From positions 1-38,290 of the IMG/VR virus record IMGVR_UViG_3300043399_000330: a stretch of 38,290 nt of DNA; one strand, given 5' to 3'. This document shows positions 3,806-38,290 of the stretch, in pieces. The notes beneath the pieces are model-generated. The model was given only the letters and a program-made list of their open reading frames with translations. It was not told the DNA's origin and did no database searches. Position numbers and translations under genes: made by a program. Position 1 is the first letter of the stretch. Every line of letters begins with the position of its first letter. The stretch is from a virus.

Positions 3806-4318
3806 ATGCCAACCAGCAAGAAACCACGCAAGGCCTACCGCCCCAAGCCAGTGATCCGCGACACGATCAGCTATGCGATGGCCGGCGTCACGCCGATGAT
3901 GGATAGCAAAGATACGGCCATGCTCAAGCGCATTGCCAACAGCGACGCACTGGCCGCGCTGTGCCAAGGCCGCGCCACCGTCAGGGATATGGACGTGCTG
4001 GTGCACATGCACAACACCGTGGAGGCGCTGTGGCTGCAAGGCTTCGGAAAGGAGTACGCCGAGGTGCTGATTCGCGGCAAGGCGGCCCTGCTGGACGTGT
4101 GCAACCGTGGAGCGCAGTCCAAGCGCTTCCTGGTGAAGGCCGAGGAGCGCCAGGCGCTAAACGACTTGCTGGAGCTGCACGACGCTCAGATGGAGGTCGT
4201 CACCGTGCGTGACATGGTGAAGGCCGACGCAAAGGCCATCCACGAGATTGTCACTGGCAAGGCTATCGTGATCCGCGACAACGCCAAGATTGCCGTAGTC
4301 AAGGGGATGCGTGCATAA
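3806..4318 (+). CDS. Conserved hypothetical phage protein (170 aa)
   Basis: It begins MPTSKKPRKAYRPKPV, a Lys/Arg-rich N-terminus, and continues as a mostly helical protein with a segment LVHMHNTVEALWLQGFGKEY. I recall this basic N-terminus from uncharacterised proteins of related phages but cannot name a function. The start at 3806 follows GAGGATG, and the gene ends just before a rightward intrinsic terminator, so it is the last gene of the cluster. A role in host takeover or early replication is possible. Confidence 0.75.
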   Translation: MPTSKKPRKAYRPKPVIRDTISYAMAGVTPMMDSKDTAMLKRIANSDALAALCQGRATVRDMDVLVHMHNTVEALWLQGFGKEYAEVLIRGKAALLDVCNRGAQSKRFLVKAEERQALNDLLELHDAQMEVVTVRDMVKADAKAIHEIVTGKAIVIRDNAKIAVVKGMRA

Positions 4319-4369
4319 TGTGACGGCAGCGATCGGGAAGTCACTGCTAGATCTCCAATGACATCATTG

Positions 4370-4395
4370 CCCGGCCTTGTGCCGGGTCTTTTTTT
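4370..4395 (+). terminator. Rho-independent terminator after the rightward early cluster
   Basis: Stem CCCGGC (4370-4375), loop CTTGT, stem GCCGGG (4381-4386), followed by TCTTTTTTT. It lies 52 bases after the stop of the 170-residue gene. Confidence 0.9.
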
Positions 4396-4410
4396 GTGGG
4401 TAGAATGACA

Positions 4411-4632
4411 GCGTGACGGTAAAGCGACACACCGGCAATGCGCCGACACACCGCAGGGTTGGGGGAAACCTGGCCGCCGTCACGCATCACGCATGTGGAT
4501 TGGTTACAAGCGCCACGATGGCCGGTTCGCCGGCTTGGCTGTCGCGCCAGTCCGCAGCCGTGATGGTGGTGTGATAGGCCTTGGCGGGCGTGTCGACGCC
4601 ATCAGCAGGAAACCCGCTTCGGCGGGTTTTTT
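4411..4632 (+). ncRNA. Putative structured non-coding RNA
   Basis: No convincing gene occupies 4396-4632 but the rightward strand can fold strongly. GCGTGACGG (4411-4419) pairs perfectly with CCGTCACGC (4477-4485) and encloses two possible hairpins, one with a GGGGG loop near 4461. ATCACG (4486-4491) pairs with CGTGAT (4559-4564) and encloses GCCGG-TTCG-CCGGC (4521-4534) inside a GCCA/TGGC helix. GGCGT-GTCG-ACGCC (4587-4600) follows, then an intrinsic terminator (4611-4632). A promoter TTGTGC/18/TAGAAT with its -10 at 4401-4406 would start the RNA exactly at the first helix. It matches no RNA family that I recognise. Confidence 0.55.
4611..4632 (+). terminator. Rho-independent terminator ending the 4.4-4.6 kb transcript
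   Basis: Stem AACCCGC (4611-4617), TTCG tetraloop, GCGGGTT (4622-4628) running into a T-tract to 4632. It faces the 3' end of the leftward cassette and would also stop read-through toward it. Confidence 0.9.
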
Positions 4633-4831: not shown

Positions 4832-5166
4832 TTGGTCATCACCTCAATGTGTGCAATGGCGTCGGCGCACCCGTGCGCGACGATCACCGTATCTTCAATC
4901 TCAGTCAGGTAGGCGATCACCTGGCGCTGCTCCTCGCTCAGTCTGCCGCCCTTCTGGCGCTTCATCTCAACCCAGACGCGCCACGCCGGGATGTAGAGGT
5001 CTGGGATGCCGCGAACGGCTCCGGTGGCCTTCAAACGCGTGGCCGTGGCAATGTGTCGGTGTCCACCGTTCGGGATGGCGAAGACCAGCACGCCAGGGTA
5101 TGTGCGGCGGAACCATGCCACGAAACGGGCCTGCTCCTGATCCTCCGATGGTACTTCTACGGTCAT
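4828..5166 (-). CDS. VRR-NUC family nuclease (112 aa)
   Basis: This is a stand-alone VRR-NUC (PD-(D/E)XK superfamily) nuclease. Visible motifs are a Glu/Gln-rich first helix (SEDQEQARFVAWFR), PNGG at 32-35, GIPD at 53-56, the ExK pair in VWVEMKR (E67, K69) and a conserved Gln at 80. Family members are small nucleases acting on branched or structured DNA, often beside helicases, as here. ATG 5166 follows AGGAG by six bases, so it is preferred to a TTG two codons upstream. It overlaps the helicase stop by four bases. Likely role: resolving replication or recombination intermediates. Confidence 0.9.
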   Translation of the reverse strand: MTVEVPSEDQEQARFVAWFRRTYPGVLVFAIPNGGHRHIATATRLKATGAVRGIPDLYIPAWRVWVEMKRQKGGRLSEEQRQVIAYLTEIEDTVIVAHGCADAIAHIEVMTK

Positions 5167-6770
5167 GCCCAACTCCTATTCAAAACGCGGTAGAACTTGC
5201 CTTCCTTGCGGTACTCGATGGACTCTGGAGGCTTGGCATGCGTCATCACCGTGGCGATGTGATCCAGGCCGTCAGCGCCTCCCAGGTCGGCAGCACCGGC
5301 CAGCGATGCGCCAGCAGATTCCGCCATGTCCAGCAGGACGCGCATTGACTTGGATCCAGCATAGCCGATGTTCAGCACGGGCAGGTATTCGGTGATGGGA
5401 CGATCCGACAGCGCGCCGTAGTACGTAACGGCCAACATTTCTTGTCCGCTGGTCTTGCTGGTGTGGCGACGCCAGGACCAATAGGTTAGCTCCATTGTGT
5501 GACCTTCCAGCCCCATGATGTCGTCGGCGCGCAGCTTCATTTCTTTTGGCGCTGGCGGCGGGAACTGGTGAAGGCACGCGGGGCACTCGCGCGTGGAAAT
5601 GGCCACCAACTCGCCGCAGTCAGGGCAGGCCTTCACTGGCGCTGTGCCATCTCCGCTGCCTTCCTTCTTGGGTGGCTGCACCGACGTGATAGGGCCATGC
5701 GTTTCCACTGCGCCGGCGAAGTCCAGCACCAGGCAGTCGGTCTTGCCTTCGGCGATGCGCAGGCCTCTTCCGGCCATCTGGACATATAGGCTTGCGCTCA
5801 TGGTGGGGCGAAGCATGGCGATCAGGTCGATGCCTGGATGGTCAAAACCCGTCGTCAGTACGTTGGCGTTAGTCAGGGCGCGGATGTTGCCGGCCTTGAA
5901 CTCGCGCAGGATGCGCTCGCGCTCGGCCTTTGGCGTGGCCCCAGTCACGCATTCGGCCGTGATGCCGTGCTCACGCAAGACCTCTGCGATGTGTTCGGAG
6001 TGCTGGACGCCGGAACAGAAGAATAGCCAGCTCTTGCGGTCACCAGCCAAGCGCAAGACCTCCTGCACCACGGCGCGGTTCTGGTCGTCGGTGTCCACTG
6101 CGGCTTGCAGCTCGGACTCGATGAACTCTCCACCTCGACGATGTACGCCATCCGTTGATAGCTTCGCGCCGGTGATCTTGCTGCGCAGCGTGGACAGGTA
6201 GCCGCCTGCGATCAACTCCGTGATGGTGACAGGCTCAATCAGGTCATCGAACAGCGCAGGCTTGTCGGTGATCAGACCATGCCCAAGGCGGTACGGCGTT
6301 GCAGTCAGGCCGATAACGCGCAGCGCCGGGTTGATGGCCTTCAGCGCGGCGATCAGCTTTCTGTAGCCGCCCTCGTCCTTGTGGCTGACAAGGTGGCACT
6401 CGTCAATCACGATCAGGTCAACGTGCCCTAGCAGCGCGGCCTTGTCACGCACCGACTGGATGCCGGCAAACGTGATCGGCTCGCCAAGCTGGCGCTTGCC
6501 GATGCTGGCGCTGTAGATGCCCATCGGTGCACCAGGCCAGTGCTGGCGCATCTTCTCGGCGTTCTGCTCGATCAGCTCCTTGACGTGTGTCAGCATCAGG
6601 ATGCGAGTCTCTGGCCACATCTGCAAGGCTTCCTTGCACAGCGCAGCGACGATGTGACTCTTGCCAGCCCCGGTCGGCAGGACCAGGCAAGGGTTGCCAT
6701 CGTTGCCAGCACGGAACCAGTCGTAAAGCCGGTCTATGCTTCGGCGTTGGTAGTCGCGCAGCATGGCCAT
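5163..6770 (-). CDS. Superfamily 2 DEAD/H-box DNA helicase (535 aa)
   Basis: The ATPase core is complete: Walker A PTGAGKS at 32-38, DECH box at 123-126, motif III TATPYR near 156-161, and a motif VI arginine finger in QMAGRGLR in the second RecA domain. A C-terminal zinc ribbon (CPDC ... CPAC) follows near residues 390-410, and the tail is unassigned. This is the SSL2/RadD-like layout common in phage replication cassettes. ATG 6770 overlaps the exonuclease stop by one base (TGATG). It probably unwinds or remodels DNA for the neighbouring nucleases in replication or recombination. Confidence 0.93.
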   Translation of the reverse strand: MAMLRDYQRRSIDRLYDWFRAGNDGNPCLVLPTGAGKSHIVAALCKEALQMWPETRILMLTHVKELIEQNAEKMRQHWPGAPMGIYSASIGKRQLGEPITFAGIQSVRDKAALLGHVDLIVIDECHLVSHKDEGGYRKLIAALKAINPALRVIGLTATPYRLGHGLITDKPALFDDLIEPVTITELIAGGYLSTLRSKITGAKLSTDGVHRRGGEFIESELQAAVDTDDQNRAVVQEVLRLAGDRKSWLFFCSGVQHSEHIAEVLREHGITAECVTGATPKAERERILREFKAGNIRALTNANVLTTGFDHPGIDLIAMLRPTMSASLYVQMAGRGLRIAEGKTDCLVLDFAGAVETHGPITSVQPPKKEGSGDGTAPVKACPDCGELVAISTRECPACLHQFPPPAPKEMKLRADDIMGLEGHTMELTYWSWRRHTSKTSGQEMLAVTYYGALSDRPITEYLPVLNIGYAGSKSMRVLLDMAESAGASLAGAADLGGADGLDHIATVMTHAKPPESIEYRKEGKFYRVLNRSWA

Positions 6771-7798
6771 CACCCGACTATCTTGCCGCCAAACTCGGCG
6801 CGCATAGAGGCCACAAACGCATCATCGCTGGCGCAGGCTTTCGGGTTTGCCAGTAGCTCTCGGCTGCTGAAGACGCCTTTGCCTGGTTGCCCGTTGCCCA
6901 CCGGGTAGCCGTCAATCAGGTAGACAGCCGTCCACTCGTCGCGGCCTTCCTGAAGTTGCCACGGCACCAGATCTGGGTGAAGCACATGAGAGTCACACCC
7001 GGCGCGCTGAAACTCGACTGGGATGCCGTCGGCCTTGTGGCGTTCGCAGCGCCAGGCAGAGTCTGGCTTGGCCGTGCTGTGCGAGCAGGTGCGGCAGTTG
7101 ACGTGCTGAGTGGTCAAGGTGTCATGGCAGAATCTGTGCGCGTCGCAGAACTTGCACTGGTACCAGGATGGGTCGGTGCTGATGGGCGGCGGCATGCGGT
7201 CCTCCAAAGCTAGACGCCGACCTCGCTCGATGTACCTCTCGGCCACATCCTTCTCGTAGCGCACGCGCTCGGTGTAGATGCGGTCGTCGTCCTTGCAGAC
7301 CGCCACATACAAGGCTCGGTCGATCTGCAGACCGTGCATGTAGAGTTGCATCTGTACAAAGTGCTCAGGCTTGGCGCTGGCCACAGACCCGGCCTTCTCA
7401 AGGGCAGCAAAGCTCTTGCTGCCATGCGTTTTGAACTCGGCCACGTGGCGTTTCTTGGGCGCTGCAGGCACGCCAGATTCGATGACGGCGTCGATGCTGC
7501 CGGACACGTGGGCACCGAAGTCCACGCGCGCCTGTTGCTTGCTGGTGCGCACATCCATGCCTATGGCGCGCAGGTCCGACACGATGGTGGCCTCTTCCAT
7601 CTGGCCCCTGCGGAACAGGCGCAGGATGCGGCCAGGGAATTTTGGCTGCACAGCCCAGCGAAAGGACAGCCACAGCCAGCGGTCGCATGGGTGGCCCAAC
7701 TGGCTGCAGCCCATGTGCGGCCTAGGCGGTTCGGCCTGGGCCTCGTGGTGTTTGTCGATCAGCCCTTGGATGCTATGCTCTGGCTCAGGAATCTTCAT
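6770..7798 (-). CDS. PD-(D/E)XK exonuclease, RecB/Cas4-like, with cysteine cluster (342 aa)
   Basis: Core catalytic residues are visible as D103 in SGSIDAV and the E121-x-K123 pair in HVAEFKT. Cys31 and Cys38 near the N-terminus, with C214, C217 and C223 (CKFCDAHRFC) after the nuclease core, suggest an AddB/Cas4-type iron-sulfur staple; C234, C237 and C250 may form a second metal site. ATG 7798 (MKIPEPEH) has AAGGAG seven bases upstream, better than the ATG at 7813. Together with the Sak4-like ATPase and DUF669 protein it forms a typical phage strand-annealing recombination set, supplying resected ends. Confidence 0.88.
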   Translation of the reverse strand: MKIPEPEHSIQGLIDKHHEAQAEPPRPHMGCSQLGHPCDRWLWLSFRWAVQPKFPGRILRLFRRGQMEEATIVSDLRAIGMDVRTSKQQARVDFGAHVSGSIDAVIESGVPAAPKKRHVAEFKTHGSKSFAALEKAGSVASAKPEHFVQMQLYMHGLQIDRALYVAVCKDDDRIYTERVRYEKDVAERYIERGRRLALEDRMPPPISTDPSWYQCKFCDAHRFCHDTLTTQHVNCRTCSHSTAKPDSAWRCERHKADGIPVEFQRAGCDSHVLHPDLVPWQLQEGRDEWTAVYLIDGYPVGNGQPGKGVFSSRELLANPKACASDDAFVASMRAEFGGKIVG

Positions 7799-7823
7799 CG
7801 GGCTCTCCTTCATGCAGTTGTCA

Positions 7824-7855
7824 GCCCGGTCCTCTTGCGAGGCCGGGCATTTTTT
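7824..7855 (+). terminator. Rightward-facing intrinsic terminator inside a leftward operon
   Basis: On the plus strand GCCCGGTCCTC (7824-7834), loop TTGC, GAGG and CCGGGC (to 7848), then ATTTTTT. The stem has one unpaired base. Both flanking genes run leftward and the minus strand has no U-tract, so it would stop only antisense transcription. Confidence 0.7.
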
Positions 7856-7859
7856 CGCC

Positions 7860-8366
7860 TTACTTCTTGGCCCAGGGCGGCGTGGCCTTGGCTGGAGCGG
7901 CAGGCGCGGAGGCCGCAGCCGGTGCGGAGGCTGCAGGTGCTGCGAAGGTCGGCGCGCTGCCGGTGATCGCTTTGAAGCCCTTGACCTCGTTCTGTGCCGA
8001 GTATTGCTCGGTTGCGGCGCGCACATCAAGTTTGATCTGCAGGTCACCACCGATCAGTTGGTCGGTGTCGGTGACCTTGGCCAGGCCAATGCTGCGCATC
8101 AACTCGCCAAGCTGCTGGCGACCGATCTCTTCGGCCTTGGCGCTGGCATTCTTGATGTTGAGGTTGCCGAACACCACGCGGCCCTGGTGCGAAGGCCCGG
8201 TGATGTCGTAGCGCACATTGATGTACCGGCCTGAGCGGTCCTTTGTCGGCTGCAAATCGGCCTTCGTGATCTTGGCCGTGTACCAGCCGGGCGGCAGCGG
8301 GTCGTAGTTGCCACCGTTGCCCTGGGGCAGTTCGTTTGCGTCAAAGGTTTGTCCGAGGAATGCCAT
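7860..8366 (-). CDS. DUF669 protein, probable single-stranded DNA-binding partner (168 aa)
   Basis: The N-terminal about 125 residues match the DUF669 pattern: MAFLGQTFDANELP, then PLPPGWYTAKITKADL and SGRYINVRYDITGP. This family sits next to phage recombination ATPases and is thought to bind single-stranded DNA. The C-terminus is a flexible Ala/Pro tail (about 135-160) ending PPWAKK. ATG 8366 follows AAGGAG by eight bases. Its position between the exonuclease and the Sak4-like gene supports an SSB-like or annealing-accessory role. The family assignment is firm, the biochemistry inferred. Confidence 0.88.
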   Translation of the reverse strand: MAFLGQTFDANELPQGNGGNYDPLPPGWYTAKITKADLQPTKDRSGRYINVRYDITGPSHQGRVVFGNLNIKNASAKAEEIGRQQLGELMRSIGLAKVTDTDQLIGGDLQIKLDVRAATEQYSAQNEVKGFKAITGSAPTFAAPAASAPAAASAPAAPAKATPPWAKK

Positions 8367-8368
8367 GG

Positions 8369-8767
8369 TTATTTCTCCTTGCGAGTGATGGTGAATGAAG
8401 GACGGCCAGGCTTGGCCGTGATTGCAGGCGCGAGAACTCGCGTGATGCTCGGGTCGGCATTCTTCCATGCCGTCATGTTGATCTCGGCCTTCCAGCGGAA
8501 AAGCTGCGCCAGATGGTCGGACAGGCCATGCTCGGCAGCGATCTCCTGCACCAGATCGGCATCCACCTTGCGATCAATGCGGCCCGTAACCTTGATGGTG
8601 AAGTGACCCGGGCTGGCAGTCTCGACGCCTTCCATCGTCTCGGAAATGCCGATCATGGACTTCAGGCGGTCTTCGATGGCGCGGCGATGCTCGACGGCTT
8701 CGCGTTCCTCGGCCTTGGCCGCCAGCCAAAGCTGGCTGAGTTGGTTGAGGTCATCTGGCAGGGTCAT
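8369..8767 (-). CDS. Recombination-cassette accessory protein, DUF7173-like (132 aa)
   Basis: From ATG 8767 (MTLPDDLNQLSQLWLAAKA) the protein has two N-terminal helices (EEREAVEHRRAIEDRLKSMI) followed by a small mixed region with FTIKVTGRIDRKVDADLV and a C-terminus KPGRPSFTITRKEK. I recall this pattern from uncharacterised genes near phage exonuclease and recombinase genes. It overlaps the Sak4-like gene by four bases, so it is translationally coupled to it. A DNA-end or nuclease-accessory role is inferred from context. Confidence 0.8.
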   Translation of the reverse strand: MTLPDDLNQLSQLWLAAKAEEREAVEHRRAIEDRLKSMIGISETMEGVETASPGHFTIKVTGRIDRKVDADLVQEIAAEHGLSDHLAQLFRWKAEINMTAWKNADPSITRVLAPAITAKPGRPSFTITRKEK

Positions 8768-9441
8768 GCTGCACCGCCAATCTTGGCAATGATTGCGCCC
8801 AGGTCTGGCGCTTCCCATGCGGACAGCTTGCCGCTGCGATCCTTGGCCAGCCAGAGGCCGTCTGAGTCGCACATCAGGGCGCGTTGCGTGTTGCCTTCGC
8901 CGTCCTTTTCGACTCTCAGCGCCAGCACCTCGTCAAAGAAATACGGCAGTTGCTGGCCGGTCTTGTTGCCTGGCATGGACGGGGCGTAGAGGACGCGGCC
9001 CATTTCGTCCTGCGTCTTTTCGAGCTTGGCGCTCATGTAGACATGGCGACCCGGCAGGTCACGGAATGCGCGGATGATGTCGGCCATCTGCTCCTGCATG
9101 GATCCGTATGCCTGGCGTGGGTCTTTGGTGGCCTTCTTCTCGGCATTGAGCACCACCTCAGCGATCTCGCTGACGGAGTCGAGCGCAACCGACTGGAACT
9201 CGCGCGCCTCGGCGGACTGCGCCAGCCACGAGTAAGCCTCTCGCAGCGTGGCCATGTCGCTGATCTCGATATAAGGCAAGTCGGCGTCTTGGATGGACAG
9301 CAGTCCGCCCTCGGCAGACAATACCACTGGGGCCGGCATCGTCTTGATAAGGCTGGTCTTGCCAGCGCCGGCTTGGCCGTAGACCAATAGCTTTACGCCC
9401 TCGGCGTGAAGTGCGCTAGTGCGCTTGAGAGAAATAGCCAT
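8764..9441 (-). CDS. Sak4-like RecA-fold ATPase (AAA_24), single-strand annealing recombinase (225 aa)
   Basis: A minimal RecA-type core: Walker A GQAGAGKT at 22-29, Walker B-like VALDS at 85-89 after hydrophobic residues, and PYIEISDMATLREAY between. Phage Sak4 proteins are short RecA-like ATPases that stimulate strand annealing with an SSB partner; here the DUF669 gene is two genes downstream. It is the first gene of the leftward cassette, reading from the divergent promoter at 9491-9525, with an AAGGAG site before ATG 9441. Likely role: homologous recombination and concatemer formation during replication. Confidence 0.88.
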   Translation of the reverse strand: MAISLKRTSALHAEGVKLLVYGQAGAGKTSLIKTMPAPVVLSAEGGLLSIQDADLPYIEISDMATLREAYSWLAQSAEAREFQSVALDSVSEIAEVVLNAEKKATKDPRQAYGSMQEQMADIIRAFRDLPGRHVYMSAKLEKTQDEMGRVLYAPSMPGNKTGQQLPYFFDEVLALRVEKDGEGNTQRALMCDSDGLWLAKDRSGKLSAWEAPDLGAIIAKIGGAA

Positions 9442-9559: not shown

Positions 9560-9745
9560 ATGATGACTATTGAGCAGATCAAGGACAGGCTGAGGGATGC
9601 CAACCTCAAGCGGGTCGCTGAGAACGCTGGCATCCATCCGGCCACGGTCTACAGGTTCATGCAGGAGGATTCCAAGCCTCTGTACGAGACGGTCAAGGCG
9701 CTGTCGGACTACCTGACACGCAGGGAGGCCACGATCAATGGCTGA
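9560..9745 (+). CDS. Small helix-turn-helix regulator (61 aa)
   Basis: A compact protein, almost all of it HTH: MTIEQIKDRLRDANLKRVAE, then NAGIHPATVYRFMQE as turn and recognition helix, then a final helix LYETVKALSDYLTRRE. It resembles short Xre/Cro-type or MerR-like phage regulators. The ATG at 9560 is preceded by an AGAGGTG site. It lies 34 bases after a palindromic operator that covers promoters in both directions, so autoregulation and control of the recombination cassette are likely. Its end overlaps the primase start by eight bases, coupling it to replication. Confidence 0.85.
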   Translation: MMTIEQIKDRLRDANLKRVAENAGIHPATVYRFMQEDSKPLYETVKALSDYLTRREATING

Positions 9746-11792
9746 CTTGTCCCAGGTGCTCGGTGGGCCTTGGTCACCACCGCAAGAGAGGCGCATTGCC
9801 CCGCCAGAAGAACAACTCATCGATGCCATCAGGAATGCCGGGCTGGAGCCACCGGATCACGTGGTGCTCGACGGCAAGCTGCATCGGTTTCGATCGGGCA
9901 CCAAGGGCAGTGCCAAGGCAGGAGACAAGTCAGGTTGGTACGTGGTGTTCGGGGACGGCATCCCAGCAGGAAGATTCGGATGCTGGCGCATGGGGCTGGA
10001 GTCGCCCTGGCGTGCCGATGTTGGCAGGCAGTTCTCACCGGCAGAGGAAATGGCGCACGTGCGGCGCATGGCCGAGGCCAAGGCACTGCGCGATGCGGCC
10101 CTGGAGAAGCAGCACGAGGTGGCCGAAACCACAGTGGCGGCGATCTGGAGCCAGGCATCGACGGCCAATGCCGAGCACCCATACCTCAAGCGCAGGGGCG
10201 TACAACCACACGGCGCACGGATCACAGGCGACGGCCGCTTGATGCTTCCACTCTTCGGCCAGGACGGCACCCTGTGCTCGCTGCAGTACATCGACAACGA
10301 AGGTGGGAAGCTCTACCACCCAGGCGCAGAGGCCGGTGGGAAGTTTTGGATGGTCGGGACGATGGACGAACCCGGCACCATCTACGTGGCAGAGGGGTTC
10401 GCCACAGCGGCCACGATCCACGAGACAACAGGCAGGCCGTGCATTGTTTCTTACAGCGCCAGCAGCCTTGTCCCGGTGACCGCAAGCTTGCGTGAGATGT
10501 ACGGCAATGCGCAGGACATCGTCATCGTGGCCGACCACGACAAGCACGGCGTCGGCCAGAAGTATGCCGACCAGGCCAGTGCCAAGTATGGCGTGCGCGT
10601 GGTGATGCCTCCGATCGAAGGCATGGATGCGAATGATTATGCTCAGGCAGGCCACGACCTGACAAGCCTGCTGGTGCAGCCAACTGGCACGGCAGTGATC
10701 GACAAGCTGAAGGTGGTCTTCGGTGACCAGCTTGGCGAGGACTACGAGGCACCAGACGAACTGGTCGAAGGCCTAATGACAATCGGAAGCTCGGTGGTGG
10801 TCTACGGCGACAGCAACTCCGGCAAGACTTTCTGGGCGCTGTCAGTGGCCACAGCGATCGCCACCGGCAGCGACTGCTACGGCCGCAAGACAGACCCAGG
10901 CCTGGTGGTCTACCTGGCCAGCGAGGCACCGGCAAGCATCCGATCGCGCATGCAGGCCATCAAGAAGTTCTACGGCTGCAGCTTGGAGAACCTGGCCATG
11001 GTGCCGGTCCCGATGAACTTCTACGCTGGCGCACAAGACGCCCACGACGTCATCAAGATGGTCTGGGCGATTGAGCAGATCAAAGGCAAGCCAGTGCGCC
11101 TGATCATTGGCGACACGTTGGCCAGGATGAGCGCAGGAGCCAACGAGAACAGCGGCGAAGACATGGGGCCAGTCATGGCCAGATTCGACCAGGTGGCCAC
11201 CGCCACGGGCGCTGCCATGATGATTATCCACCACAACGGAAAAGACGCAGCCAGAGGTGCACGAGGCTGGTCCGGCATCCGTGCCCACATCGACACCGAG
11301 ATCGAGGTCAGTGAGAAAGACGGCGTGCGATCGGTCTCGGTGACCAAGCAGCGCGAGTTGCCTAGCAAGGGCGAGACGATCTACTTCCGGCTGGAGGTGA
11401 TCGAGATGGGGACAACCAAGTTCGGCGGCGCAGCCACCACCTGCGTGGCCGTTCCAGACGAGGAGGCAAGCACCACAAAACCACACAAAAAACCAACAAA
11501 GCACGACGAGAACGTGCGCACGGTTGAGCGTGCCTGGTGGGCATCCGGCGCTGAAGAGCGTGAGGGTTCACCATACATCAGTCGGTCGGCGCTGCGCGAT
11601 CTGCTGGTCAAGGACGGCATGTCGGAGCGCACAGCCAAGAACAAAACCGAGGCCAGCAGGCCGGACGGAATCATCGCGAAACTGCTCAATGCAGGCACGC
11701 TGGAGACGTTCGAGCACGGCTGGATCTTCGTCAACGAGACGCACGCGAGCGCACTTCTGATGCAGAAAAATGCCCCCAAAAATCGCCCCTAA
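9738..11792 (+). CDS. Bifunctional TOPRIM primase / RepA-type helicase (684 aa)
   Basis: The N-terminal region (1-200) is primase-like; I see no complete zinc finger. A TOPRIM domain follows with the acidic motif in IYVAEGFATAATIHE (about 212-226) and the DxD motif in DIVIVADHDKHG (about 259-270). The C-terminal helicase has Walker A GDSNSGKT (about 356-363), Walker B LIIGDTLAR (about 454-462) and a His/Gly motif HHNGKDAARGARG (about 497-509), as in RepA/AAA_25 helicases. Residues about 575-684 may form a winged helix. It overlaps the HTH gene by eight bases and its 3' end runs into the origin candidate, consistent with initiator or replicative helicase-primase function. Confidence 0.93.
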   Translation: MADLSQVLGGPWSPPQERRIAPPEEQLIDAIRNAGLEPPDHVVLDGKLHRFRSGTKGSAKAGDKSGWYVVFGDGIPAGRFGCWRMGLESPWRADVGRQFSPAEEMAHVRRMAEAKALRDAALEKQHEVAETTVAAIWSQASTANAEHPYLKRRGVQPHGARITGDGRLMLPLFGQDGTLCSLQYIDNEGGKLYHPGAEAGGKFWMVGTMDEPGTIYVAEGFATAATIHETTGRPCIVSYSASSLVPVTASLREMYGNAQDIVIVADHDKHGVGQKYADQASAKYGVRVVMPPIEGMDANDYAQAGHDLTSLLVQPTGTAVIDKLKVVFGDQLGEDYEAPDELVEGLMTIGSSVVVYGDSNSGKTFWALSVATAIATGSDCYGRKTDPGLVVYLASEAPASIRSRMQAIKKFYGCSLENLAMVPVPMNFYAGAQDAHDVIKMVWAIEQIKGKPVRLIIGDTLARMSAGANENSGEDMGPVMARFDQVATATGAAMMIIHHNGKDAARGARGWSGIRAHIDTEIEVSEKDGVRSVSVTKQRELPSKGETIYFRLEVIEMGTTKFGGAATTCVAVPDEEASTTKPHKKPTKHDENVRTVERAWWASGAEEREGSPYISRSALRDLLVKDGMSERTAKNKTEASRPDGIIAKLLNAGTLETFEHGWIFVNETHASALLMQKNAPKNRP

Positions 11793-11930
11793 ACGCCCCT
11801 GACTGCCCCTAGGGGTTTTTAGGGGTTAGGGGCAAAAGCCCGGAAAATCGCCCCGCCCCGCCCCTAAACCCTATAGGGTAGGGGCAGTAGGGGCACCGGG
11901 ATGCGGGAAAACAGGGAAAAGTTATCCACA
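11785..11930. other. Candidate replication origin: GCCCCT iterons, palindromes and DnaA box
   Basis: GCCCCT recurs at 11785, 11795 and 11805, exactly 10 bases apart. Inverted copies follow: AGGGG at 11821 and 11828, and a 9-base tandem GTAGGGGCA at 11878-11886 and 11887-11895. Two perfect palindromes are present, CCCCTAGGGG (11806-11815) and ACCCTATAGGGT (11868-11879). TTATCCACA at 11922-11930 is the consensus DnaA box. The block starts in the last codons of the primase-helicase gene and fills the gap before the next gene. This combination is typical of an iteron-type origin. No marked A+T-rich opening region is evident. Confidence 0.7.
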
Positions 11931-11951: not shown

Positions 11952-12266
11952 ATGAGCACTCAAATGCAAAGAGAATTTGACAGGCTTGAACATGCGATCG
12001 GAGATGGCGATCCAAACATGCTGCGCCAGGCTGCTGACGATCTGCGTTTGGCAGTCACAGCCAACGATGTTCAGATCGGCGGCCAGCACTACAAGGCCAA
12101 GACTATTCAGCCCTGGGACTTCATCGCAGCCAACCAACTTGGCTACTTCGAGGGCAACATCGTCAAGTACGTCAGCCGATGGCGTGACAAGGGGGGCGTC
12201 GACGACCTGCGCAAGGCCAGGCACTATTTGGACAAGCTCATCGAATTGGAGGAAAATGCAGCATGA
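11952..12266 (+). CDS. DUF3310 protein (104 aa)
   Basis: The C-terminal half carries the DUF3310 signature: VQIGGQHYKAKTIQPWDFI, then FEGNIVKYVSRWRDKGGVDD and LRKARHYLDKLIE. This family is widespread in phages, often near nucleotide-metabolism or replication genes, with no settled function. The start at 11952 has GGAAG seven bases upstream; an in-frame ATG at 11901 lies among the origin repeats and is less likely. The N-terminal helix (QREFDRLEHAIGDGD) is extra to the domain. It is the first gene after the origin candidate. Confidence 0.88.
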   Translation: MSTQMQREFDRLEHAIGDGDPNMLRQAADDLRLAVTANDVQIGGQHYKAKTIQPWDFIAANQLGYFEGNIVKYVSRWRDKGGVDDLRKARHYLDKLIELEENAA

Positions 12267-12298: not shown

Positions 12299-12421
12299 AT
12301 GAAAGCCATCATCGTCATCACAGCCGCTTTGCTGGCGTTTTCGGCCCAGGCCCAGACCACGCGCTGCTACAAAAACGCTGATGGAAGCATTACCTGCACT
12401 CGTGGCAGTGGAGGTTTTTGA
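12299..12421 (+). CDS. Secreted mini-protein with signal peptide (40 aa)
   Basis: MKAIIVITAALLAFSAQAQ is a complete Sec signal: a Lys, a hydrophobic core and an AQA cleavage site. The mature peptide is about 21 residues (TTRCYKNADGSITCTRGSGG) with two Cys that could form one disulfide in the periplasm. A 12-codon longer frame from 12263 overlaps the previous gene by four bases but would bury the signal. The stop TGA overlaps the next ATG by one base. It sits oddly between a replication-side gene and the terminase. Function unknown. Confidence 0.6.
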   Translation: MKAIIVITAALLAFSAQAQTTRCYKNADGSITCTRGSGGF

Positions 12422-12933
12422 TGGCAACCAAGAAACCCAAGAAAATTGGCCGACCCCCTGAGCCTGTGCCGTCAGACAAAGTCGATGACATCTGTCAGTG
12501 GATTTCGCAAGGTAAGACGCTGCGGCAATGGTGCCGAGACAACAAGATTCACTACTCGACCGTGTATCTGTGGATGGAGAAAGATCAAGAGTTCGCTCAA
12601 CGCTTCGCACGCGCGCGTGACATTGGCGCTGACTGCATTGCCGATGAGACGCTGGAGATCATCGACACGCAGCCTGACATGGCAGTCACGACCAGTGAGA
12701 ATAGTTCCAGCGAACGAATCGACTCTGCTCACGTGGCGTGGCTGAAGAATCGAGCCGAGCAGCGCATGAAGCTGTTGGCCAAGTGGAACCCCAAAAAGTA
12801 CGGCGACCGGCTGGCGCTGGCTGGCGACAAGGAAAACCCGCTGGAGGTCAAGCAGACAATTGACGCCAGCAAACTATCGACGGACGTGCTGGCGCAGATC
12901 ATGGCGGCCAAGGATGCAACTGACGCAGGCTGA
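12421..12933 (+). CDS. Terminase small subunit (170 aa)
   Basis: This is the DNA-recognition subunit of the packaging motor. The N-terminus is basic (MATKKPKKIGRPPEP), followed by a helix-turn-helix (CQWISQGKTLRQWCRDNKIH, then YSTVYLWMEKDQEFAQRFAR) typical of phage small terminases. A helical oligomerisation region and the segment RMKLLAKWNPKKYGDRLAL follow, which recurs in this family. It overlaps the large-subunit gene by 20 bases. In a P22-type phage it would bind a pac site and start headful packaging; the pac site itself is not identified and may lie in or near this gene, as in P22. Confidence 0.88.
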   Translation: MATKKPKKIGRPPEPVPSDKVDDICQWISQGKTLRQWCRDNKIHYSTVYLWMEKDQEFAQRFARARDIGADCIADETLEIIDTQPDMAVTTSENSSSERIDSAHVAWLKNRAEQRMKLLAKWNPKKYGDRLALAGDKENPLEVKQTIDASKLSTDVLAQIMAAKDATDAG

Positions 12934-16538: not shown

Positions 16539-17405
16539 ATGACGCAACAGGCAGAAAACGAGGACCAAATCGAATCGCCAGAGGTTGAGATCGTTGAGGA
16601 TGAGCAGCACGACGACGCAGCGGCACAAGCCGAGGCAGAGGATGCGGGCCAGACTGACGATCAGACCGATGACGAAGTGATCGTGTCCATCGGAGAGGAA
16701 TCGCCGCCTCAAGAGGAAAAGACTCATGCGCCGGAATGGGTGCGCGAGCTGCGAAAGGCCAACCGAGAGAAGGAAAAGCGCATTCGTGAACTGGAGCAGA
16801 AGTTGCAGTCCACTGCTCAGACTGAGAACAAGCCAGTTGAGCTAGGACGCAAGCCACGCCTGGAGGATCACGACTACGACTCCGACCGCTACGAGGCCGC
16901 GCTGGAGCAGTGGTACGAGCGCAAGCGCCAGACCGAGGCACAAGCCGAGCAGGCACGCCAAGCCGAACAGGCGCAGCGTGACGCATGGGCCGCCAGGCTG
17001 GATGCCTATGGCAAGGCGAAAGCCGAGCTGAAAGTACGCGACTTTGAGGACGCCGAGGCATTGGCCCAGGAAATCTTCGATGTCACGCAACAAGGCATCG
17101 TGGTGCAAGGCGCGGACAACCCTGCCCTGGTGATCTACGCGCTCGGCAAGAACCCTGCGAAAGCGAAAGAGATCGCGTCAATTAAAGATCCCGTGAAGTT
17201 TGCCTTTGCGGTTGCGAAGCTGGAGAAAGAATTGAAAGTGACCCAACGCAAGGCAGCACCGCCGCCCGAAAAGACCATCAGCGGAACCGCTCGCGTCTCT
17301 GGCGCAGTGGATTCGACGCTGGAACGACTACGCGCCGAAGCGCTGAAAACAGGCGACATGACGAAGGTCATGGCGTACAAGCGCCAAAAGCGTGACGCAT
17401 CTTGA
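16539..17405 (+). CDS. Scaffolding protein (288 aa)
   Basis: Lies exactly between portal and coat genes, as P22 gp8 (303 residues) does. The first 70 residues are very acidic (VEIVEDEQHDDAAAQAEAED). The centre is long coiled coil (RKANREKEKRIRELEQKLQS and RQTEAQAEQARQAEQAQRD). The C-terminus is basic (MTKVMAYKRQKRDAS), matching the coat-binding C-terminal helix pair of P22-like scaffolds. It would direct procapsid assembly and leave before packaging. Little sequence identity is expected in this family; composition and position carry the call. Confidence 0.9.
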   Translation: MTQQAENEDQIESPEVEIVEDEQHDDAAAQAEAEDAGQTDDQTDDEVIVSIGEESPPQEEKTHAPEWVRELRKANREKEKRIRELEQKLQSTAQTENKPVELGRKPRLEDHDYDSDRYEAALEQWYERKRQTEAQAEQARQAEQAQRDAWAARLDAYGKAKAELKVRDFEDAEALAQEIFDVTQQGIVVQGADNPALVIYALGKNPAKAKEIASIKDPVKFAFAVAKLEKELKVTQRKAAPPPEKTISGTARVSGAVDSTLERLRAEALKTGDMTKVMAYKRQKRDAS

Positions 17406-32948: not shown

Positions 32949-34966
32949 TGTCCGCACTCTCGATTCAACCAATTTATCCGATCTTCACGGACATTGATGG
33001 CCAGCCTCTTGAGGCAGGTTATGTCTGGATTGGCCAGGCAAATCTTGACCCACAGGTCAATCCGATTAACGTGTATTGGGATGCTGCTCTGAGCATTCCG
33101 GCGACACAGCCTATCCGCACGCTTGGTGGCTACCCTTCGCGCAACGGTACGCCTGCACGCCTGTACGTCAACAGCGACTACAGCATCCGCGTCATGAACA
33201 AGAACGGCAGCACGATCTACAGTGCGCCGGCTGCGACCGAACGCATCAACTCAGCGCTTATCAGCAACATCGACGCATCCCAAGTCGCCTACAACCCAGC
33301 AGGCACCGGCGCAGTTGCTACTACGGTGCAGGCCAAACTTCGGAATACGGTTAGCCGCGCGGAATACGCATCTGACAGCGACTACGACAGCGCCAGGGGC
33401 GCACTGAGCGATAGATTAGACCACGTTGTTAGAACTGAAGGCGGCGCGCAGGACCGACTTCTGTCTTACAAACTGAATGACAACATCAGTGTGAGAGACA
33501 GCGGGGCGCTTGGTAATAACAATGTAGATGATAGAAACGCAATTTCTGACGCTCCGTTTCCGAAGTACCTGCCGCGCGGCACGTACAGGATTGATTCATC
33601 CTTGAGGTATGGTCAGGATGAGCTTTTTCATGGTGCTGGCCGTGGCTTCAAAGGCACAATTATCAAGCCGTCCGGCAACTTTTCTGCATTTGTCAAAGAC
33701 GATTCGCAGGCTATAGATTACACGCGAAACGATTTTGCAAACTTCCAGATTGATGCGTCCAACATCACATCTGATTATGCGGTGAAACTCGAAAAAGTTT
33801 ACCTCACATCGTTTCAGAATATTTGGATTAGAAACTCTTACAACGGAATTTCCCTGCAAGAGAGTGACGCTGTTGAATTCAATAACGTAACTGTTATGGA
33901 GAACAGCAACAATATTGCTGTGCTCGTAGGAAATAACGCTAGGTCGATAAAGTTCCACAGTTCTAACTTTGAGAAGAACCCAGGAAACGCTAACCCTGGT
34001 GGAACCGTTCAGGTAGACGGCTCCGGTGTTACTGTCTCTAGCGGATATTTCTACGGCTGCCAGATCGAACGCGGCCAGCTTCTTGTCAACAAGGGCGTGG
34101 CGTACTGGTCCGGCGGGAAGCTTACAGACGCCAATATCCTGTTGAGCAAGCAGTCGCAGGGCAGTGTTATTGAGGCGCAGATGTACGGTAGCACGTGCGT
34201 CAGGGATTTCGGTTACGGAAACCGGATAAGAAACGCTGCCTGCGTAAACATGATGACGCCTCTACATCAGTGGCCAGAACTTTCCACGGCTGCTGGCGCT
34301 TCGACTTACGGAACTGGCGGGGATGAATACACCTATTTGGTAACAGCCGGTGTTGTGACAAACACTACCGCGTATTCATGCAGGATTGAAATTCAAGAAG
34401 GGGCGTCTGTTGTCGCCCTAAGTCCAAACTTTGATTTTGCTATTGCGCAAGGTAACGCTGTTGGACAGCAAGCAAAAGACAAATACACGTTCCTTACTAC
34501 TGTAAGAAATACAACTGTCGGTACAAACGTAGCTGTTGATAATGCAAGCCTAATTGGTACAAAAGGCGGTAAAAATCTTTTGACCAATGGCACATTCAAT
34601 GGCGGATCTGGTGCCGGGTGGACTGCCGTAAACGCAGGCATCAGCGCACTTGGCCAGGACATTGTTGTGATACCAGGTAGTGCTGGATGGGCTATTTATC
34701 AACCGATAAATACAGTCTTAAAGAAAGGTAAGCGATACATTGCAGTTGCAAAATTCTCCGGCGCTGCTTACCTGTGCCTTGGAAACGCGTGGGATGGCAC
34801 GGTTGGCTCAAGAGTTCTTATTGACGAAGGTGCTTCAGGAATTTACGACTATGACAATATTGCAATGTTGAGCTTTGAATACACTGGAACTGAACGAATC
34901 AGCCTAGGGAACATAAGTGCAGGTACACCAGTAGAAGTACGCTGGATTTCAGTTATTGAGTGCTGA
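32948..34966 (+). CDS. Tailspike with P22-type head-binding domain (672 aa)
   Basis: Residues 1-105 match the P22 tailspike N-terminal domain: SIQPIYPIFTDIDGQPLEAG, YVWIGQANLDPQVNPINVYW, PIRTLGGYPSRNG and YSIRVMNKNGSTIY. This part attaches trimers to the tail hub. After a linker, a pectate-lyase-like parallel beta-helix begins near ISVRDSGALGNNNVDDRNAI and continues to about 470. The C-terminal region (VTNTTAYSCRIEIQEGAS, WTAVNAGISAL, RISLGNISAG) is beta-sandwich-like. From about base 33400 composition drops markedly in G+C, so the receptor-binding part was probably acquired separately. It likely binds or cleaves O-antigen or capsule; no catalytic pair is assigned. Confidence 0.88.
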   Translation: MSALSIQPIYPIFTDIDGQPLEAGYVWIGQANLDPQVNPINVYWDAALSIPATQPIRTLGGYPSRNGTPARLYVNSDYSIRVMNKNGSTIYSAPAATERINSALISNIDASQVAYNPAGTGAVATTVQAKLRNTVSRAEYASDSDYDSARGALSDRLDHVVRTEGGAQDRLLSYKLNDNISVRDSGALGNNNVDDRNAISDAPFPKYLPRGTYRIDSSLRYGQDELFHGAGRGFKGTIIKPSGNFSAFVKDDSQAIDYTRNDFANFQIDASNITSDYAVKLEKVYLTSFQNIWIRNSYNGISLQESDAVEFNNVTVMENSNNIAVLVGNNARSIKFHSSNFEKNPGNANPGGTVQVDGSGVTVSSGYFYGCQIERGQLLVNKGVAYWSGGKLTDANILLSKQSQGSVIEAQMYGSTCVRDFGYGNRIRNAACVNMMTPLHQWPELSTAAGASTYGTGGDEYTYLVTAGVVTNTTAYSCRIEIQEGASVVALSPNFDFAIAQGNAVGQQAKDKYTFLTTVRNTTVGTNVAVDNASLIGTKGGKNLLTNGTFNGGSGAGWTAVNAGISALGQDIVVIPGSAGWAIYQPINTVLKKGKRYIAVAKFSGAAYLCLGNAWDGTVGSRVLIDEGASGIYDYDNIAMLSFEYTGTERISLGNISAGTPVEVRWISVIEC

Positions 34967-37626: not shown

Positions 37627-38290
37627 TTCGTTTCTCCTGTGATGAGATGGGCACGTTCTACTGACCTTACAATTGCTCGGATGGCGTCTTGGAACTCTTG
37701 GCTTCTACGAACCTGCTCATTAGTCCAGCCGGTTGGCGCACCACCGAAGTTCCTAGCAAAAAAGAACTGCGCACCAACGGCACAGTTTGCAATATCTTCA
37801 TCCGTCAGCGGCCTGGTCTTGAAAGTCCCATGCTCCTCCTCGATCCGGCGCACGATCTCGAAGATGTTGCCGTGGAAGACGCCTTCGTCGGCCAGCTCCT
37901 GGATGCGCTGCTGGGTCAGCGGCTGCTGCGCTGGCGCAAAGCCCCACAGGGTTGCCAAACGCTTCTGCGTGGATTTGCAGTTAAGATTCAGGCCCGTTAC
38001 CTGTACCTCCGGTGCTGCGGCGAGCATGGTGCGATACAGACTTTTACCAACACTCATTCGGTGCGCGCGAAATTCTTGCGCGTAGCCATTAACGGTAGCC
38101 TGAAGCATCTCCGATGTTGGCTCCACTGGCACCAGCTTCCAGCCTTGAGGTATGGCGGGGTGCTGCGCTGGCTGCGGGTGGGTGTAGAGGCTGACTACAC
38201 TGTGCTCGCGGTCTGTCATTTCGTCGCATAGGTCTTCTAGGTCGTGCACCAGTTCCTCGTTAGGCTGGTCAGGAAAGTAGACGGCGTAGG
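37623..38290 (-). CDS. Early-operon protein, C-terminal part (gene spans the contig junction)
   Basis: Continuation of the gene starting at 232; bases 38210-38290 duplicate 1-81. The joined product is 272 residues. After the helical N-terminus come HPAIPQGWKLVPVEPTSEML, a motif common in phage and prophage hypothetical proteins (P-x-G-W-K-L-V-P-x-x-P-T-x-E-M), then YRTMLAAAPEVQ and a C-terminal domain beginning PLTQQRIQELADEGVFHGNI with an acidic DEDIANCAVGAQFFFARNFG. The domain-like parts suggest a modular protein. Function unknown. Confidence 0.85.
   Translation of the reverse strand, partial: YAVYFPDQPNEELVHDLEDLCDEMTDREHSVVSLYTHPQPAQHPAIPQGWKLVPVEPTSEMLQATVNGYAQEFRAHRMSVGKSLYRTMLAAAPEVQVTGLNLNCKSTQKRLATLWGFAPAQQPLTQQRIQELADEGVFHGNIFEIVRRIEEEHGTFKTRPLTDEDIANCAVGAQFFFARNFGGAPTGWTNEQVRRSQEFQDAIRAIVRSVERAHLITGETK
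38210..38290. repeat. Terminal direct repeat, right copy
   Basis: Identical to bases 1-81. Removing one copy and joining the ends restores a single 819-base reading frame, so the unique length is 38,209 bases. Confidence 0.95.

Follow-up and report, generated by a model that had tools for sequence, protein, structure and literature searches.

A conserved iteron array behind the helicase-primase gene of a P22-like podovirus, its probable replication origin

Initiator helicases that read iterons behind their own gene are already known from phage P4 and from staphylococcal islands (SaPI), and in lambdoid phages the lambda O protein and its iterons vary together from phage to phage. The P4 alpha protein combines primase, helicase and a C-terminal winged helix in one polypeptide and binds origin repeats, and the ORF904 protein of plasmid pRN1 likewise carries a C-terminal winged helix; an essential stem-loop of 100 nucleotides (nt), whose structure is more conserved than its sequence, lies directly downstream of its gene (PMC4234260). 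The Rep helicases of SaPI recognise iterons directly downstream of their gene with the C-terminal domain, as does Cch2 (PMC7581432), and in the V. cholerae element PLE the DNA-binding domain of the initiator RepA covaries with the origin and has been swapped repeatedly (PMC8263062). Here, a stretch of viral DNA of 38,290 nt (IMG/VR record IMGVR_UViG_3300043399_000330), in the following called the window, was analyzed. Its positions 11785 to 11930, a repeat array behind the gene of a 684-residue helicase-primase, are proposed to be the replication origin, or the initiator-binding core, of a P22-like podovirus, bound by the phage's own helicase-primase. Judged from the sequence, this reading was given a probability of about 0.8.

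No publication dealing with replication origins in this group of phages came up in the literature searches. In the main text of the paper on the related Salicola phage CGphi29 (PMC6518143) the term "primase" is absent and "replication" occurs once; in PMC12629253, "iteron", "primase" and "origin of replication" are all absent.

The repeat array and its conservation

The array is built from copies of one hexamer, here called the word, in both orientations and contains the following features.

Positions 11785 to 11833, no strand: left iteron block with GCCCCT at 11785, 11795 and 11805 and inverted AGGGG(C) at 11811, 11821 and 11828; conserved in relatives.
Positions 11829 to 11837, plus strand: word-independent G-element GGGGCAAAA (family form GGGGCRAA), identified by 6-mer enrichment and its spacing to the palindrome.
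Positions 11850 to 11865, plus strand: right block, three tandem GCCCC copies at 5-base steps (sequence and alignment).
Positions 11868 to 11879, no strand: central palindrome ACCCTATAGGGT with covarying arms (compensatory changes).
Positions 11880 to 11894, minus strand: inverted AGGGGC copies of the right block at 11880 and 11889 (sequence).
Positions 11900 to 11906, plus strand: word-independent T-element GATGCGG, identified by its spacing after the palindrome centre.
Positions 11922 to 11930, plus strand: consensus DnaA box TTATCCACA (enrichment behind the primase).

GCCCCT starts once more at 11860, GTAGGGGCA stands in tandem at 11878 to 11886 and 11887 to 11895, and CCCCTAGGGG forms a palindrome at 11806 to 11815. 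The DnaA box is the sole exact one in the window on either strand. An earlier note on this DNA, made from its letters, had listed these repeats, the palindromes and the box, and all of them were located. It had also placed the first iteron within the end of the primase gene, which holds since the stop codon is 11790 to 11792 and the iteron starts at 11785. Three copies of a 6-mer at exact 10-base steps were unique in the window; when the stretch was shuffled 1,000 times by dinucleotides, 3 shuffles equalled them. Counting the commonest 6-mer by itself gives a weak statistic, because 83 of 1,000 shuffles reached that count, the stretch being rich in C4 and G4. Conservation is stronger evidence for the array than these local statistics.

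For the conservation analysis, IMG/VR was scanned with the window primase, resulting in 80 loci, and four full-length relatives from named phages were taken from a phage collection. With four more IMG/VR scans and the phage records, 350 loci were collected in addition to the window. Removal of duplicates and short flanks left 234, 221 of them with a primase of at least 600 residues. An array was called when one 6-mer occurred at least five times within the first 300 bases behind the primase stop codon. Such an array was found behind the primase in 164 of the 221 full-length relatives and in 9 of 221 random windows of the same loci, so that the conservation proposed as a check in the earlier note was confirmed; at a threshold of at least seven copies the numbers were 100 relatives and no control window. 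One locus with an AT-rich word and no real array (L064) is counted in the 164, in the 98-locus residue scan and in one of the 32 pairs described below; it was removed for the word classes and for the nearest-neighbour and bootstrap tests. L065 and L079, two loci whose word narrowly misses the threshold, were included manually for the word classes and for the nearest-neighbour, bootstrap and disjoint-pair tests.

In the four named phages, with a primase identity of 36–41% to the window, the array occupies the corresponding place within a conserved gene order, with a word particular to each:

Salicola phage CGphi29 (NC_020844): GGGACA.
Idiomarinaceae phage 1N2-2: GGTACA.
Alteromonas phages XX1924 and PB15: GGTTCA.

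Neither the window nor any of these four genomes has a dense cluster of its word outside the array. In ct76p945, the fifth relative inspected, the array was not found. Of a set of 32 loci six were inspected, and four of these, on contigs from bacterial genomes, carry an array behind the longest open frame (L353, CGGACC; L354, AGGGCG; L356, GGTACA; L373, GGGACA); none was found there in L355 and L378. Among the 57 relatives without an array behind the primase is a large group whose winged-helix sequence is a different one, of the SRRNLI or KRAQIP type (L128–L138, L146–L149, L152–L167, L208–L225 and similar). In PMC12045711, CGphi29 is cited as having an RNA-guided TIGR-Tas (TasH) locus, and no relation of this locus to the array was seen.

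Clustering of the 91 non-redundant array loci resulted in 15 word classes, with words such as AGGGGC/GGGGGA, GGTAAC, GGTACA, GGTACC/G, GGGAAC/GGAACA, GGGACA and GGGTCA. A change of the word hits direct and inverted copies alike. The spacing between neighbours of the same orientation was most commonly 10 bases (68 cases), followed by 9 bases (46), which is in line with the earlier suggestion that the 10-base steps place the iterons on one face of the helix.

Across the word classes, three elements that do not depend on the word are found in a fixed order on one strand. The first is GGGGCRAA, and its 6-mer GGGGCA was identified in 34 of the 54 loci outside the two G4-rich word classes, compared to one on the opposite strand and 8.1 expected from shuffles. 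It is followed by a palindrome with a centre such as TTTA or TATA at a median distance of 45 nt (exactly 45 nt in 20 of 55 loci and 46 nt in 10), and a GATGCGG-like element lies at a median of 27 nt past the palindrome centre. With spacing limits of 20–90 and 8–60 bases, 55 of 91 loci had the G-element followed by the palindrome, compared to 5 on the reverse strand, and 31 of 91 had all three elements in order, compared to none.

Nine loci (L009, L010, L015, L016, L017, L023, L025, L053 and L054) match the clade of the window in the left array half and the word. On the right they differ from it: a second version of this half is present, a promoter-like stretch comes next, in several loci with repeated CCTATAGG, and the DnaA box is absent, which points to an exchange point inside the proposed origin.

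An alignment of 22 arrays that share the word class of the window showed changes on both sides in four of the six base pairs of the palindrome arms. Cells changed on both sides numbered 17, compared to 6.0 in shuffles, and the flanking iteron pairs were invariant. Such stem-like covariation, together with the folding of the region as single-stranded DNA (z −2.06), would also suit an RNA function where the primase transcript ends, as a terminator, an attenuator or a small RNA. No terminator-like site was found, however, and the window had no match in Rfam, and the direct and inverted word copies change jointly in step with a DNA-binding helix (see below). A function as RNA is thus considered highly improbable.

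Within 350 bases past the primase gene the box TTATCCACA reaches a density of 0.99 per kb, compared to 0.015 per kb in the rest of these loci. With this enrichment of about 70-fold, the box genuinely belongs to some of the regions. It occurs in 53 of the 221 loci. These values, the position of the window's box about 30 nt past the last iteron and the tandem boxes in the GGTAAC/GGGAAC clade would fit an origin that is initiated mainly by host DnaA, with the iterons in an accessory role. This is very unlikely, as only 22 of the 91 non-redundant array loci contain a box and whole word classes have none; conserved boxes as the mark of a DnaA-dependent origin were thus not found across the family, and the window has a single one. 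DnaA can be a helper at most. The recruitment of DnaA proposed in the earlier note may apply to this phage; it does not extend to the family.

Array word, helicase-primase and neighbouring genes

The gene next to the array and the parts of it that bear on the word are as follows.

Positions 9738 to 11792, plus strand: helicase-primase of 684 residues (Pfam, match of the family profile to RepA, 1g8y, AlphaFold models).
Positions 11499 to 11771, plus strand: codons of a predicted winged-helix domain, about residues 588–678 (model with a predicted local distance difference score (pLDDT) of 87 and a predicted template modelling score (pTM) of 0.77).
Positions 11625 to 11648, plus strand: codons of the helix at residues 630–637, within the predicted winged helix.

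Pfam assigns a Toprim_3 domain to residues 215–304 and an AAA_25 domain, of RSF1010-RepA type, to residues 326–504, and in the AlphaFold models a winged helix follows. The family profile matched RSF1010 RepA (1g8y) with an E value of 9.6e-14, which by sequence places the helicase part in the RecA-like hexameric RepA family. The Toprim domain carries EGFATA; EGYATA is the name of the P4 motif. For the last 110 residues, which had no match in Pfam, the predicted fold is helix, strand, three helices (616–625, 630–637 and 645–652) and a two-strand wing. The VIA-align neighbours of this model are general winged-helix proteins (best Z 6.9); the P4 domain was not in that list, an outcome that rules nothing out. 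Foldseek returned no match at E ≤ 0.001, the C-terminal profile matched only an S-layer protein among solved structures (E 0.66), and a plasmid search found no record covering 80% of the protein.

Changes of the word were found to follow this domain. In pairs matched for distance in the protein core, the excess identity of same-word pairs was large at residues 636, 641 and 635 and over the stretch 621–640 (mean 0.21), and averaged none over residues 1–310. Residues 683–684, also high, were set aside because their codons overlap the first iteron. When only relatives more than 35% different in the core were admitted, the nearest neighbour by residues 630–649 shared the word in 51.8 of 84 loci (0.62; random 0.13), compared to at most 0.41 for all other 20-residue segments. 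With the largest word class left out, the segment scored 0.48 and the seven other segments listed at most 0.17; the bootstrap margin over the best other segment was 0.20 (0.09–0.30). Ranked by divergence among all segments, residues 630–649 stood at percentile 0.886 in 32 disjoint close pairs with different words and at 0.522 in 62 same-word pairs (p 7e-9).

A single close pair illustrates this. The cores of L067 and L069 differ by 1.7%, a Q in the helix is replaced by V and SSPG behind the helix by SATG, and the word changes from GGTAAC to GGGAAC/GGAAC in most copies. V or I occupies the same helix position in the distant loci L274 and L112, whose word is GGAACA. Across 78 distinct helix-word combinations, with kinship ignored, R631 goes with G at word position 3 (29 of 31), Q635 with T3 (12 of 12), K636 with G4 (22 of 22), Y636 with A4 (24 of 27) and E641 with C5 (8 of 9). 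Exceptions are L233, with R631 and GGTAAC, and L083, with Y636 and GGTTCA. The array is thus very probably bound by the helicase-primase itself via its predicted C-terminal winged helix.

Locus L088 links word and helix as well. It shares the word AGGGGC with the window and is 75% identical in the Toprim domain and 80% in the helix, compared to 26% in the helicase domain (window positions 10713 to 11507). Two helicase types thus appear, from these identities, to have been exchanged between similar primase and winged-helix parts.

The replication block around the array has three genes on the minus strand and continues on the plus strand with, in this order, HTH protein (HTH, helix-turn-helix), helicase-primase, repeat region, DUF3310 protein and terminase genes:

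Positions 5163 to 6773, minus strand: helicase, replication block.
Positions 6770 to 8050, minus strand: Cas4-like exonuclease, replication block.
Positions 8764 to 9441, minus strand: Sak4-like annealing protein, replication block.
Positions 9560 to 9745, plus strand: Cro/XRE-like HTH protein of 61 residues (weak HTH_3 match; phrog_18104 for a longer frame).
Positions 11952 to 12266, plus strand: DUF3310 protein, behind the repeat region.
Positions 12418 to 12933: terminase small subunit.
From position 12860: terminase large subunit.

The 3′ end of the HTH gene overlaps the primase start by 8 nt. In relatives this gene overlaps or abuts the primase start, it is syntenic in the four named phages, and some relatives have a promoter-like segment inside or behind the array. 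The array could therefore be an operator for this protein or another repressor, controlling the operon or the genes behind. A profile search found the HTH gene upstream of 69 of the 221 primases, among them 65 array loci (39 non-redundant, 617 pairs). Over four distance bins, the area under the curve (AUC) for predicting a word change was 0.66, 0.40, 0.53 and 0.65 for the HTH protein against 0.85, 0.81, 0.72 and 0.77 for the primase helix. In L063 and L065 the HTH proteins are identical, by a cruder extraction of upstream open reading frames, and the words differ. Moreover, the HTH proteins match differing families (HTH_3, P22_Cro) while the architecture of the array is constant. An operator is accordingly most unlikely. 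The upstream HTH protein as the main reader of the array was rejected, because its tracking of the word was weaker in all four bins and because of the mismatch in L063 and L065; it is probably an autoregulator and probably not the iteron reader. The earlier note had named the helicase-primase or a partner as the binder. Covariation supports the primase, with the winged helix, unnamed in that note, as the reading domain; for a partner, the weaker word tracking of the HTH protein speaks against it.

The small terminase gene starts about 490 bases beyond the array, which raises the possibility of a packaging (pac or cos) site. In XX1924 and PB15, however, the small terminase lies about 5–6 kb away and the array is still found behind the primase. 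A word that follows a primase helix is also unexpected for pac, and this function is regarded as extremely improbable.

Proposed initiation and points that weigh against it

The interpretation as an origin is based on the position of the array behind the helicase-primase, the two opposed iteron groups, the palindrome core, the fused reader domain and the enriched DnaA boxes. Anatomy, conservation, fixed spacing and the covariation of word and helix are observed; binding, melting, loading and priming, as well as a replication start at this site, are inferred from them. The winged helix would place several helicase-primase subunits on the GCCCCT/AGGGGC iterons, whose two opposed groups flank a core of GGGGCAAAA, the palindrome 45 nt further on and GATGCGG. 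Binding would concentrate the RepA-type helicase ring at the palindrome, which may open between the iteron groups, perhaps as a hairpin. The RepA-like ring would then load, and the fused Toprim primase would make the first primer, perhaps at GGGGCRAA. The host DnaA box may aid opening in this phage and seems dispensable in most of the family. Binding is better founded than the other proposed steps because of the covariation.

Several observations weigh against this interpretation. An array within 300 nt of the primase stop codon is missing in 57 of the 221 relatives. In four of these (L041, L044, L346 and L347) it is present behind an interposed short stretch or gene, in three (L175, L178 and L187) the repeat window begins inside the gene, and two (L065 and L079) are the loci just below the threshold. 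Most of the remainder are clades with another primase C-terminus, in which neither an array nor an origin was found. The loci L195–L199 have a strong GGTACA array, yet the C-terminal end of their primases fails to align with the winged helix; another reader domain or another protein is a candidate there. Parsimony required 35 word changes on the winged-helix tree and 42 on the core tree, a mild difference, and the word classes and residue-base counts are incompletely corrected for kinship. No clear AT-rich melting region was found, the content of guanine and cytosine (GC) being 0.57–0.59 around the array.

After detrending, the GC skew of the window has its minimum at 33,395 and its maximum at 17,240; the array is at 11.8 kb. 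The earlier note had named a GC-skew minimum elsewhere as part of what would speak against an iteron-type origin, and with the minimum at 33.4 kb this part was indeed found. Its interpretation as an iteron-type origin stands as far as a conserved iteron element in cis behind the primase is concerned. In the window, skew is confounded by gene direction. In all four named phages the minimum lies within about 1–2.5 kb of the array; as it is also on or near a divergent switch of the gene strand, GC skew was given no weight either way.

As to the genome itself, positions 1 to 81 and 38210 to 38290 are identical, as in a circular or terminally redundant assembly, so that the genome is a circle of 38,209 bases or a permuted map. 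By Pfam and PHROG matches, its portal, coat and scaffold proteins belong to the P22-like podovirus type. The segment 33001 to 34500 has a low GC content (0.48–0.51), lies inside a frame of 672 residues without a PHROG match and also contains the GC-skew minimum.

Comparison with known systems

The results predict the replication start site and the residues that choose it for a large, mostly uncultured phage group. A test of origin specificity can therefore be made by exchanging a few residues and a single base in each repeat. As plasmid tools, initiator-origin pairs that match and do not cross-react are in demand, and the fast turnover of the word raises the question of what makes phages change their origin address. 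We tentatively suggest, at somewhat less than even odds, that this phage group amounts to an extensive natural collection of paired words and helices with a largely legible residue-base code (R631-G3, K636-G4, Y636-A4, Q635-T3), in which winged helix and array travel as a cassette from one primase or helicase type to another. Opening and priming would fall to an invariant core of GGGGCRAA, the palindrome 45 nt on and GATGCGG 27 nt after that, and the turnover of the word would result from conflict, for example exclusion between co-infecting replicons, origin-targeting nucleases or satellites. None of the literature searched describes the scale, the other type of helicase or the core that is independent of the word.

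The closest likeness in domain order and position is to P4. Toprim_3 is present in both proteins (hhalign probability 99.6, E 7.8e-24, residues 46–306 of the window protein). The P4 crr element (4291–4590) has type 1 repeats in both orientations, is required in cis and lies directly 3′ of the alpha gene, comparable to the array at 11785 to 11895, a likeness that rests on position and repeats. The helicase of P4 alpha, in contrast, is of superfamily 3 (SF3; D5_N) and that of the window protein is AAA_25 of the RSF1010-RepA/RecA-like type, the C-terminal domains have no detectable sequence match, and no zinc ribbon was found here. P4 also has a distant ori and a different word, whereas a fixed palindrome core is present in the array. 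The proposed origin would thus act in the manner of P4 alpha/crr; the system was not assigned to P4, since its helicase is of the RepA type and the C-terminal domains of the two proteins are without a sequence match.

In SaPI Rep and SCCmec Cch2 the C-terminal domain of a helicase reads short iterons behind its own gene, and the like is proposed here from the covariation. Those staphylococcal islands have a separate primase and an initiator helicase of 3′-to-5′ polarity (Cch2), and the window protein has a fused primase and a helicase of another family. pRN1 is a crenarchaeal plasmid with a large stem-loop and no iterons, compared to iterons plus a short palindrome in the array. PLE uses a RepA_N initiator with an N-terminal domain and semi-palindromic iterons of about 30 bp, which is not a fused helicase-primase. 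The helicase domain of the window protein belongs to the RepA family of RSF1010 (IncQ; 1g8y); the functions that RSF1010 distributes over three separate polypeptides, according to PMC4234260, are found here in one protein.

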